Of a stretch of DNA of 33,653 nt, positions 26,690-32,572 are shown in pieces; within the stretch, counting starts at the first letter, position 1; every line of letters starts with the position of its first letter. Made by a program: the position numbers and the translations under genes. The stretch covers positions 1-33,653 of the forward strand of contig CAISHO010000032.1 in NCBI GenBank assembly GCA_903885165.1, in the 5' to 3' direction. The notes below the pieces were generated by a model, which was not told where the DNA came from, searched no databases, and was given only the letters and a program-made list of their open reading frames with translations. Source of the DNA: an uncultured Nitrosomonadales bacterium. Its GTDB lineage: Bacteria; Pseudomonadota; Gammaproteobacteria; Burkholderiales; Gallionellaceae.

Positions 26690-27062
26690 TCAAGGCCGGT
26701 TTAGCACCGCCTCAAACGAGATTATCGGCACCGGCTTTCCAAACAAATACCCTTGCATGATATCGCTGTCCCATGCTCAAAATGTAACTCTGAGTCTCTG
26801 TCTCGACGCCTTCTGCAACCACCTTGAGTTTCAGACTATGAGCCAGGCTGCTGATACCAGCGCAGATGGCCACGGAGCTATCGTTGAACTCAATACCCAT
26901 GACAAAGGGCCTGTCTATCTTCAGTTGATCCAAACGCAATCGGCTCAAATAAGCGAGCGATGAATAGCCGGCACCGAAATGATCCAGAGAAAATCCTATT
27001 CCATGAGCTTGCAGCACGCCCATCTTGACGATAGTGCCTTCAATGTCTTGCAGCACCGGACA
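26690..27062 (-). pseudogene. EAL-domain (c-di-GMP phosphodiesterase) C-terminal remnant
   Basis: The fragment reads VLQDIEGTIVKMGVLQAHGIGFSLDHFGAGYSSLAYLSRLRLDQLKIDRPFV and then SSLAHSLKLKVVAEGVET, which is the second half of an EAL domain. The metal-binding DDFGTGYSS motif has become DHFGAGYSS. The EAL signature, catalytic Glu and everything upstream are missing: in-frame stop TAG at 27063-27065, no start. Near 26770 the frame breaks, and the family ending DIMQGYLFGKPVPI continues in another frame down to a TGA at 26690-26692. It is therefore truncated, frameshifted and mutated at a metal ligand, and surely inactive. The stretch 26448-26689 downstream has no recognisable gene. Confidence 0.8.
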
Positions 27063-27228
27063 CTAGTGCATCGGCATAGGTAATGAGCACCCCTTTATGG
27101 GGTTCAAATGCCGTGGCGACGAACAAGTGTCTCTAACTCAGGAGGGGTGCTAATAGCTAAGTGACTGATTGGGAAGAAGAGTTGCTTCATGCAAAATTTA
27201 GCGGGGGAAATAGATTGACTTTTCATGA

Positions 27229-27430
27229 TTACCCACAAAGTCAGACAGCATGCGAGATAGCACCATACGGCTATTCACAAAACTTTCACGATTTTGATAA
27301 CATATTGTTTTTTAATGATTATTATAGATGACAAAAAATAAGCAGCACAAGAAAAAGCCTTGCAGAACACTACTTTAGAGGGCACATCCCCAATTTTATC
27401 CACAGAGTTATCCACAGAAATTGTGGGTAA
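27229..27430. other. Cluster of DnaA boxes next to an AT-rich stretch (candidate replication origin)
   Basis: Two perfect DnaA boxes TTATCCACA lie at 27396-27404 and 27408-27416, three bases apart. A near-consensus box lies at 27421-27430 on the other strand (TTACCCACAA) and the same sequence occurs forward at 27229-27238. A weaker CTATTCACAA lies at 27271-27280. Between them, about 27290-27345 is strongly AT-rich (GATAACATATTG, ATGATTATTATAG) and could unwind. No dnaA, dnaN or parAB gene is adjacent. The surrounding non-coding stretch runs from 27063 to 27723. It also contains an inverted repeat AGCACCCCT (27086-27094) / AGGGGTGCT (27143-27151). Confidence 0.5.
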
Positions 27431-27723
27431 AACAGAAATACTCTTTAGGAACGAGGGATTAGGAGTGAATTGTGGCGGGGATTCTGCCATGTCCTACCGG
27501 GATGGTATGCATTACCATGTCGTCAGAGTCTCCGAAAAAGCAATTTAAACACATACAATTTTCCATCAGGATCAAGCAAGAAAATTTCGTTGCCATGAAA
27601 AGACATTATTCATTGATATTTCTCATTGTGCTTTAAATTCATAGGTATGAGCACGCGGAAAATTCAGAGGTGGATGAGCAGACATAGTTCTGAAAAACTG
27701 AATAGCTGAAAATGTGCCTAGGC

Positions 27724-29737: not shown

Positions 29738-30172
29738 TGTATAAACAACCGCTATAAATTATCAAATAAAAACAGATATTTAACACAATAATGTCTGAAT
29801 CAATGACATACATCGTCGAATAAACCAAAGACATTCCTGCGCTGCCGATATTACACCCGCCACCTACTCCTGCACATCCAAAATAACGCCTACGAACCTG
29901 CGGAAGTAACAAGTTTTACATCTTTGTATCGTTTAGCGACGAATCTGAACTATCTGGCGGCAAGGTTTATTTTACTGAACGGGATGCACAAACGGCAGAA
30001 TTTCGGCGTATCATGATTCCACGATTCCGGTTGGCAGCGCTGCATAATATTCAGTCATCGTAGTGCTGTTTGACAGGCACCTGCAAAACAATTTTCAATA
30101 GTGGTGGGCCAGCGCCGGACAGGGCTGTTCAACCTGATTCTTTTCGTTGCAGTCGCATCTAAAGGAGATCTT
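29738..30172. other. Divergent intergenic region pldA / caspase gene
   Basis: About 435 bases with no full gene. One plus frame ending at the TAG 30061-30063 has a protein-like look (SELSGGKVYFTERDAQTAEF). It lacks a start codon, with a stop at 29886-29888, so at most it is a 3' remnant of an unknown gene. No promoter stands out. Confidence 0.35.
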
Positions 30173-32572
30173 ATGAAAACGCCGGGAATTTTTTTTCTGC
30201 CAGTACTACTGCTCCTATTGACAGGTTGTGAGAGCATGATGACGGTCGCACCGCAGTTGAATCTTGCGTCAAATGATCAAAAAATGGAGGTAAAGAGCAA
30301 GGTCCTGATCGTCGGCCTCCTCGATTACTCTGCAGATGGAAAAAGCCTGGTCTCCGGCGGCGCCAGTCCCACTTTAAAGTTGTGGGACATGGAGAATGCC
30401 AAAGGCACTATTTCGATTCCATTGCACGCTCAATATGGTGCGACCGATGTAGCGTACTCACCGGATGGCAAGATTTTGGCGGCATCGGGCAGGACCGGGA
30501 TATTCAACGGCGACGTTGCGCGCCTGTACGATGCAGTTACGGGTACTGAATTAAAGTCCATCAATGATAATTTCGGCGGGCAGTTGTCTTTTTCACCGGA
30601 TGGCAAATATCTTCTGGGCAGCACAGTGTCTATCAGCCTTGCTAGCATATCATTCTCGACGAAATTGCTGGAGATTCAGACCGGCGCAGTTGTCAGGACG
30701 TTTGATGGATTCAAGTTTGGCGCCATTTCACCGGACGGGACTCATGCGGCACTGGTGAGTGAAACAGGACTCGCCCTATTCGATCTGAAGTCCGGAATGC
30801 AGGTATGGCAGCAGTCGGTTACAGCGGGGAACTTCGTCGGAAGCGGGGTGGCTGCCGTTGCATTCACACCCGACCATAAATACCTGCTTGCATCGCGTAC
30901 GGAATTCCACGGCACATTGGGTAGCCAGGCCACCATGTCTGTCGAACTATTGGATGCTGCAACGGGAAATAAAGTCCGGGACCTAGTGAACTTCAGCGTG
31001 GAAGGCACCTTTTTTGCACACGAGAAGGGCAATCAGGAGTTGAAAAGTTTAGTCATCTCTCCGGATGGCAGCGTTTTTATGACCGGAAATCAGCGCGGTG
31101 AATACAGATTGTGGAATATAGCAAGCGGGCAACTAATCAAACAATTGAAACGCCCGGATGAAAAAATGATGCTGGATATGAGCCCCGCTCATGCTGCATT
31201 TTCACCCAGTGGCAAACTGGTCGCAATTTCCTCAGCAGCATCCGTAAGACTGTTCAATGTAGCTAGCGGCGACGAAGTGGCCGCAATGATCGCCTTCGAT
31301 GACGGCGAATGGTTGGTGACGACACCCAGCGGGTATTACAACTCCTCTGAGAAAGGCGACCAATATTTAAGTGTCACTGTCGCTGGCAAGCCTTATTCCA
31401 CCTCTCAACTGCGTGAATCATTCTACCGCCCGGATCTTGTTAAGGTGGCGCTTGCAGGCGATACACTGAGTGAATTTAAAAAGATTGCAGATATAAAACC
31501 GCCTCCGGTTATCGCCATCATCGACACGCCAACCTCGGCATCTGAAGATCAGGTAACTGTGTCGCTGCAAGTGAAGGATCAGGGAGGCGGTATTGGTGAT
31601 GTGCGGCTATACCGTAACGGTACGGCGGTGCTACTCGAAAAGACCCGAAACTTACAGGCTGATGCGGCCGGCGGTCAGGTGCTGCGCTACACGGTGAGTC
31701 TGGAAGCCGGTAAAAATACCATTCGTGCCGTGGCATTCAATAGTGACAACAGTATGCAAAGTACCGATGCAACGGCGGAAATTCAGGCCAGCTTCGCATC
31801 CAGACTTCCTGCACTGTATGCCGTTGTGGTCGGCATCAAGGATTATGTCAATCCAAGACTTGCGCTCACCTATCCGGTGGCTGATGCAGAATTATTTGCA
31901 TCCACATTGCTGGATAAGGGGCGTGGCTTGTTCAGCGCTATTCACATACGCAGCATGCTAAAACCGGAGGAGACGACCAGTGACGCAATTATTGCTGCGC
32001 TGATGCAGGCAAGGAAAGAAGTACATCCGGAAGATTTGTTCGTTTTCTATGTGGCCAGCCATGGGACGGTAGATGACGGACAATATCTCCTGATTACTTC
32101 CAATGTGGGTTCCACTTCCTCGGCGCACCTGAAACAGGATGCGCTTTCACAGGATAAACTGAAAGAATTGATCTCCAACATTCCGTCATCCAAGAAGCTC
32201 GTTGTGCTAGACACCTGCGATGCAGGCAAGCTGGGCGATGCGCTACAGATTGCCATGCTCACTCGCGGAATGAGCAGCGATACGGCGATGAAAGTGCTTT
32301 CACGAGCTGTCGGGTCAACGATTTTGTCCGCCAGCATGTCCAATCAGGAAGCGCTGGAGGGTTATAAGGGGCACGGATTATTTACCTATGTTGTCGTGGA
32401 AGGACTCAATGGCGCAGCGGATGCGGATAACGACGGTTTTGTAAAAACGCTGGAACTGGCTGATTATGTTGATAATCAGGTGCCCGAACTCGCCGAGCGA
32501 CTTTTCAATCATAAGCAATTTCCCATTGTGTCGCCTACCGGCCAGGGCTTTCCGCTGACGAAAACCAGATAA
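30173..32572 (+). CDS. WD40-caspase lipoprotein
   Basis: This 799-aa protein begins with a lipoprotein signal peptide ending in LLLLLTGC (Cys about residue 19), so it is anchored in the envelope. Residues about 45-400 hold WD40-like repeats (YSPDGKILAASG, FSPDGKYLLGS, ISPDGSVFMTG..YRLWNIASGQL). A GEWLVTTPSGYYNSS linker and an Ig-like segment (about 440-540) follow. The C-terminal caspase (C14) domain starts RLPALYAVVVGIKDY, with catalytic His630 in YVASHGT and Cys682 in VLDTCDAGKL. ADADNDGFVKTLE at about 749-761 matches an EF-hand calcium loop. I choose the ATG at 30173, preceded by AAGGAG. Such orthocaspases are calcium-activated proteases cutting after Arg/Lys. Its target is unknown. Confidence 0.88.
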   Translation: MKTPGIFFLPVLLLLLTGCESMMTVAPQLNLASNDQKMEVKSKVLIVGLLDYSADGKSLVSGGASPTLKLWDMENAKGTISIPLHAQYGATDVAYSPDGKILAASGRTGIFNGDVARLYDAVTGTELKSINDNFGGQLSFSPDGKYLLGSTVSISLASISFSTKLLEIQTGAVVRTFDGFKFGAISPDGTHAALVSETGLALFDLKSGMQVWQQSVTAGNFVGSGVAAVAFTPDHKYLLASRTEFHGTLGSQATMSVELLDAATGNKVRDLVNFSVEGTFFAHEKGNQELKSLVISPDGSVFMTGNQRGEYRLWNIASGQLIKQLKRPDEKMMLDMSPAHAAFSPSGKLVAISSAASVRLFNVASGDEVAAMIAFDDGEWLVTTPSGYYNSSEKGDQYLSVTVAGKPYSTSQLRESFYRPDLVKVALAGDTLSEFKKIADIKPPPVIAIIDTPTSASEDQVTVSLQVKDQGGGIGDVRLYRNGTAVLLEKTRNLQADAAGGQVLRYTVSLEAGKNTIRAVAFNSDNSMQSTDATAEIQASFASRLPALYAVVVGIKDYVNPRLALTYPVADAELFASTLLDKGRGLFSAIHIRSMLKPEETTSDAIIAALMQARKEVHPEDLFVFYVASHGTVDDGQYLLITSNVGSTSSAHLKQDALSQDKLKELISNIPSSKKLVVLDTCDAGKLGDALQIAMLTRGMSSDTAMKVLSRAVGSTILSASMSNQEALEGYKGHGLFTYVVVEGLNGAADADNDGFVKTLELADYVDNQVPELAERLFNHKQFPIVSPTGQGFPLTKTR

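Follow-up and report, generated by a model that had tools for sequence, protein, structure and literature searches.

A DnaA box cluster in a Gallionellaceae genome is probably one of four full-length copies of a DARS2-like DnaA-reactivating sequence

The DnaA box cluster and its surroundings

The DNA analysed here (33,653 nucleotides, hereafter the window) is contig C32 of a Gallionellaceae genome (2.44 Mb in 151 contigs, 99.69% complete). One of its intergenic regions carries a cluster of DnaA boxes (Table 1) adjoining a hemerythrin gene (PF01814, below cut-off), of which no relative was detected at E 1e-15 in the other 75 genomes of the genus. The minus strand (26712–27056) encodes a partial EAL domain (Pfam PF00563, profile positions 142–220 of 236), the remnant of an EAL gene located just upstream of the element. 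Further on, an 823-aa protein combines WD40 repeats with a caspase domain (Peptidase_C14; 30101–32572, + strand). A Pfam scan of 15 ORFs between 15 and 33.3 kb did not reveal any dnaA, dnaN or partition gene, in agreement with a preliminary description of the locus, which had noticed none in the flanks.

The boxes that this description had listed were all found where it had placed them: two perfect TTATCCACA boxes on the + strand separated by 3 bp, two TTACCCACA boxes in opposite directions and a weaker CTATTCACA box. The AT-rich segment reported among them is also present (80% AT over 27290–27345, 64% over 27229–27430), and the adjacent perfect boxes are, as it had argued, unlikely to have arisen by chance, such a pair being found in none of 1000 dinucleotide shuffles. 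It had missed that the inverted box at 27422 is part of a fixed three-box core, and that the element recurs at three other places in the genome. When scored for this core (a box, followed after 5 bp by an inverted one and after 3 more bp by another inverted one; 27396–27430), the window shows 1 mismatch out of 27, against 6 for the best of 1000 shuffles and 9 for the second-best place in the window. Over the window as a whole, single boxes show no enrichment: 10 matches with one mismatch for 7.26 expected, 19 of 100 shuffles reaching 10. The DnaA boxes of the cluster are real and go far beyond chance.

Table 1. Features of the element in the window. Offsets (+) are counted from box III; R1 is the sequence model described in the next section.
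Feature	Position	Strand	Evidence
Whole DARS2-like element (putative)	27192..27460	- (box I first; R1 match on +)	R1, 187 bits, the model including the window copy; alignment with other copies
DnaA box I, TTACCCACA	27422..27430	-	Box scan, comparison with E. coli cores
DnaA box II, TTATCCACA	27408..27416	+	Head-to-head with box I, gap 5 bp
DnaA box III, TTATCCACA	27396..27404	+	Tandem with box II, gap 3 bp
Conserved block	27333..27361	.	Offsets +34 to +62; in the alignment of the family, two weak Fis-like matches overlap it
IHF-like site, AAACAATATGTTA	27298..27310	-	One mismatch to WATCAANNNNTTR; +85 from box III
Weaker box, CTATTCACA	27271..27279	+	Box of the preliminary description; alignment shows no conservation
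Far DnaA box (box IV here), TTACCCACA	27229..27237	+	Oriented like boxes II and III; most of the 48 copies compared have a similar box at about +157

Copies in the genome and distribution

Alignment delimits an element of about 265 bp, of which the genome carries four full-length copies, one in the window, one on contig C148 and two on contig C5. The exact tandem pair of boxes recurs once on C148 and twice on C5, and BLAST identity to the window copy is 76–78%. The C148 copy lies between xseA and a gene resembling tolQ/exbB, which scores below the NCBIfam cut-offs. On C5, the copies are 956 bp apart and adjoin nadK. A pattern scan of genome contigs retrieved five loci from sequences titled Gallionella sp. 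(two), Gallionellales, Nitrosomonadales and Proteobacteria, all of which probably belong to genomes of the same genus as the window. The four copies and these five loci were used to build R1, a sequence-only model, which gives four matches in the genome at strict filters and eight at E 0.1, the other four being short and weak.

R1 matches 152 of the 158 genomes of the family, that of the window included, and all 94 of those that are at least 90% complete and no more than 5% contaminated; the six genomes without any match are at most 82% complete. Within the genus, 71 of 76 genomes have a match (hand count), 17 have at least three and eight at least four, the largest number being six (G085), these counts including some partial or tandem matches. 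In a sample of 250 genomes of the order, 192 match R1; as seven of the 250 are Gallionellaceae, this leaves 185 of 243 outside the family. Among the matches listed for this sample, most run from the vicinity of the IHF site as far as the core.

Conservation of the layout and of the binding sites

The layout was compared in 48 full-length Gallionellaceae copies, labelled from fetched loci and representing a selection of all matches. All 48 have the 5/3 spacing of the core. At +85, the copies deviate from the IHF consensus by 1.65 mismatches on average, the mean for all offsets being 5.88 (sd 0.89); the site, mostly AAACAA (consensus WATCAA), is within one mismatch in 33 of the 48 copies and perfect in six. 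A far box is found at about +157 in most of them, with up to 3 mismatches in a few. The block from +34 to +62 overlaps two Fis-like matches, at +36 and +52, which are weak: their means are 1.79 and 1.83 mismatches, against 4.00 (sd 0.63), and they are within one mismatch in 21 and 18 of the 48 copies, respectively.

The same spacing was retrieved by a box pattern in which the two gaps were left free (0–15 and 0–10 bp). It gave 13 matches in 12 of 250 genomes of the order and 25 in 23 of 369 genomes of the class, and all 38 have the 5/3 spacing; a reversed control pattern gave no match in either sample. This strict pattern misses the genome of the window, whose box I reads TTACCCACA. Of the 38 loci thus found by boxes alone, 17 were fetched, and 13 of these carry an IHF match (at most one mismatch) starting at +82 to +86 (11 of 13 loci from the order, 2 of 4 from the class). 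Of 527 other windows of five offsets, taken on both strands and also on the opposite side of the core, none exceeds two loci.

Divergence between copies is very unevenly distributed. The window and C148 copies differ at 0 of 26 positions of the core boxes, 0 of 9 specified positions of the IHF site, 2 of 9 of the far box and 70 of 165 of the rest, which leaves out the box spacers and the conserved block (p 5e-7). Eight further copies compared with the window copy give p values from 4e-5 to 2e-10. Across the nine comparisons, the sites hardly differ while 34–47% of the rest does; 3 to 9 of the 29 positions of the conserved block (27333–27361) differ. Among the 21 copies with a neighbour other than xseA, pairwise differences average 0.09 for the core, 0.13 for the IHF site, 0.19 for the far box, 0.25 for the block and 0.45 for the rest. 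From this pattern of substitutions, the extra copies look maintained as protein-binding platforms and not like decaying repeats.

Comparison with DARS1, DARS2 and datA of Escherichia coli

DARS sites help to set the time at which bacteria begin a new round of replication. Reverse-complemented, the core of the window reads TTACCCACA-5-TGTGGATAA-3-TGTGGATAA, box I opposing boxes II and III. In E. coli MG1655, the bioD-uvrB gap, which we take to be DARS1, contains TTATCCACT-5-TGTGGATAA-3-TGTGTATTA, and the rppH-mutH region, presumably DARS2, contains TTATTCACC-5-TGTGGATAG-3-TGTGAAGAA. Out of 27 positions of the core arrangement, the window has 1 mismatched, DARS1 has 3 and DARS2 has 5, against 8 at the best place of the datA region. 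The window core thus has both the three boxes with box I opposed to the two others and the 5 and 3 bp spacing of the two E. coli sites. According to the available excerpts of the literature, DARS1 and DARS2 have three boxes each, with a spacing common to both sites and the first box opposed (PMC5742627), and this head-to-head arrangement of boxes I and II is both characteristic of DARS and essential (PMC10380432).

The resemblance to DARS2 extends beyond the core orientation and spacing. Both elements have an IHF or IHF-like site at a set distance beyond box III and in the same orientation: the window has its predicted one-mismatch site at +85 and E. coli its match at +74, i.e. 11 bp or about one helical turn apart. 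Both are intergenic, and for the element a chromosomal location away from oriC, like that of DARS2, is suggested by its copies in two complete relatives (see below), the genome of the window itself being in 151 contigs. By contrast, the family of the window differs from DARS2 by the weak Fis-like matches between the core and the IHF site, by the far box at about +157, by other neighbouring genes and by the presence of several full paralogues per genome. Fis matches between the core and the IHF site do not follow the E. coli order, and the activity of DARS2 needs the Fis sites FBS2-3. According to PMC4245941, moving the DARS2 IHF sites by 10 bp (variant R10) leaves moderate activity, and shifting them by 5 or 10 bp towards the core leaves partial activity.

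DARS1, which is about 101 bp long in the excerpt of PMC5742627, shares the core layout with the window (3 of 27 mismatches to the consensus used), but has no IHF match within one mismatch between +40 and +129 (the best, at +86, has 2 mismatches). When R1 was run on three regions of E. coli, the DARS2 core scored highest (12.9 bits, E 7e-4, over 143 bp), its IHF site being aligned opposite the Gallionella one; DARS1 came second (11.9 bits) and another place near DARS2 third (9.0 bits, L117:3451-3608). Since these regions were chosen as holders of DARS and datA, this result is a fit and not a blind discovery.

Position relative to the replication origin

The preliminary description had primarily proposed a displaced chromosomal origin, to be checked by GC skew and by a search for a second box cluster beside dnaA. 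A displaced oriC was also the first hypothesis of the present analysis, because four of the five pattern-scan loci adjoin xseA. The skew was sampled at 20 places in each of two complete genomes of the genus, G018 and G017, whose records both start at dnaA. In G018 (2.57 Mb, sampled up to 120 kb from its end), it is positive at each of the first 11 samples, which reach 1.28 Mb, and negative at 8 of the 9 that follow, the exception being +0.003 at 1.52 Mb; element copies lie at 144 and 1005 kb. In G017 (3.16 Mb), it is positive at 13 samples up to 1.64 Mb and negative at 7 from 1.78 Mb, and the element copies, one of them weak, lie at 569–836 kb. In both relatives, the sign changes at dnaA and near the opposite side, and the copies are well inside the right arm, i.e. 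away from the skew minimum at which an oriC is expected. G017 has a second box cluster just past dnaA (1460, 1480, 1595 and 1810); the first 20 kb of G018 contain only one strict DnaA box (1424).

These data rule against a displaced oriC, and the four full copies in the genome of the window also disfavour a single origin. It is therefore unlikely that the element is a replication origin. An integrated plasmid origin, which the preliminary description had also put forward, is unlikely because the same element adjoins xseA in many relatives. The dnaA gene of the genome itself is on contig C8, and its own oriC is not seen because this contig ends on the dnaN side of dnaA. The string at the start of C8 (L022, G000:C8, 1–60), presumably an Illumina adapter, sits where the dnaA-dnaN region should continue; the true oriC is probably masked by this assembly artefact.

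Proposed mechanism and alternative explanations

Since the orientation of the core and its 5/3 spacing equal those of the E. coli DARS cores, the site is likely a DARS2-like DnaA-reactivating sequence, of which the genome would carry four full-length copies. By analogy with E. coli DARS1 and DARS2, from which DnaA binding, ADP release and an effect on timing are extrapolated, its functioning could be viewed as follows: ADP-DnaA would bind to the head-to-head boxes I and II and to box III in tandem, IHF would bend the DNA at the predicted site 85 bp away, Fis might bind to the block in between and DnaA to the far box. In the resulting complex, DnaA would release its ADP, the freed protein would take up ATP and active initiator would be regenerated ahead of the next start at oriC. 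The genome encodes DnaA, Hda and the α subunit of IHF (all over cut-off). Behind dusB, it encodes a Fis-family protein that shares 45% identity with E. coli Fis over 75 residues and is below both NCBIfam cut-offs (114 bits for a cut-off of 122).

The conservation of the binding sites would also fit a datA-like or a titration role. In datA, IHF bends the DNA amid the boxes and DnaA hydrolyses its ATP, which lowers the amount of active initiator. The predicted IHF-like site of the window, located between box III and the far box, is indeed flanked by boxes on both sides, as excerpts of PMC4585315 and PMC5742627 describe for datA, which is likewise intergenic. A datA-like site is nevertheless improbable, as the datA region has no head-to-head and tandem core and this core is the most conserved part of the element. 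Plain titration, in which high-affinity boxes would soak up DnaA whatever their arrangement, could account for the two perfect boxes and the four copies per genome, but it needs neither the fixed 5/3 spacing (48 of 48 and 38 of 38) nor a fixed position of the IHF-like site, and is quite improbable. The suggestion of a DnaA-titration site in the preliminary description went in the right direction as regards a site that acts on DnaA, the anatomy pointing to reactivation of the DARS type and not to mere sequestration.

DnaA also acts as a transcription regulator, and the intergenic location of the element would suit a DnaA-controlled promoter of the adjoining genes. These genes are however unrelated from one copy to another (for example xseA, nadK, the PII gene, hemE/priA or cytochrome b561), which makes a gene-specific promoter unlikely and leaves very little credit to a promoter function as a whole. 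Lastly, DnaA boxes, an AT-rich stretch and an IHF-like site resemble the parts of an oriC, but an origin or a relic of one is extremely improbable for an element that is present in several copies per genome, well inside one arm and off the skew minimum of both relatives. A DnaA box cluster beside an AT-rich stretch can thus wrongly pass for an origin.

DARS-like sites are a known kind of element; the multi-copy family and its layout seem undescribed. DARS1/DARS2-like sequences are conserved in many proteobacteria according to an excerpt of PMC10380432, the DARS2 layout in E. coli-proximal beta- or gammaproteobacteria according to one of PMC5742627, and excerpts of PMC4245941 and PMC8682772 ascribe the conservation to gammaproteobacteria related to E. 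coli. The DARS literature that was found, mostly as titles and beginnings of abstracts, is almost wholly devoted to E. coli and did not reveal any description of DARS in Gallionellaceae or of a DARS family with several copies; judging from the same parts, the works that cover DARS1 together with DnaA deal with E. coli or are general reviews and models. The recurrence of the layout (5/3 core and IHF at about +84) across Burkholderiales and other orders would allow candidate DARS to be read from genomes. More tentatively, and at somewhat less than even odds, the DARS2-like element may have become in Gallionella a dispersed family of working paralogues, with up to five further matches, selected and scattered, besides the old copy near xseA. 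The number and place of such stations, and not two loci as in E. coli, would then determine how ATP-DnaA is regenerated, and the core with IHF at about +84 would be an old control device of the whole class. If so, the dispersed paralogues would constitute a natural dosage series on DARS placement and replication timing; models of DnaA control can be tested on the multi-copy family of Gallionella, whose members vary naturally in number and location.

Neighbouring genes and history of the copies

Among the 48 labelled copies, 27 adjoin xseA. The element is likewise next to this gene in a second family of the order (L172-174, L177 and L179), together with purT as checked in L172. A second site is found by hemE and priA (L069, L072-L074; hemE alone confirmed in L125). 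Other copies adjoin a PII gene, a gene for a 126-aa protein without Pfam match, cytochrome b561, P-type ATPase genes and others.

In the tree, the window copy groups with two G083 copies and with those of G017 and G019 that adjoin the 126-aa gene (support 99/96), suggesting a duplication older than these species. The neighbourhoods of the window copy and of its sister copies in G017 and G019 were found to share only the element and a partial EAL domain (L157). Relatives of a gene at 13.57–13.92 kb of the window occur next to the copies in G083 and G085, which hints at a common neighbourhood. Two segments of the window (3.4–8.1 and 12.5–13.2 kb) are collinear with 1.134–1.149 Mb of G018, far from dnaA; no collinearity with this region was detected for the segment that bears the element.

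The two C5 copies, an inverted pair in G085 and a pair in G053 look like local duplications. Those of C5 (L005 1851–3070, G000:C5) bracket a 106-aa ORF (L005:2437-2757), a relative of which adjoins a copy in G074 (L153). A mobile element carrying its own gene was considered and seems unlikely from a Pfam scan, in which neither this ORF nor its G074 relative had a match. The two G085 copies (L155 3829–4613, G085:C110) are near-identical, inverted and about 290 bp apart. Two more weak DARS-like cores (4 and 5 mismatches) occur in tandem in the genome of the window (L024 2200–2660, G000:C10); they did not match the surroundings of six loci that carry tandem or related copies. In L136, L152, L154 and L159, the core part is present as shorter copies in tandem, those of the last three loci adjoining cytochrome b561 and a P-type ATPase gene.
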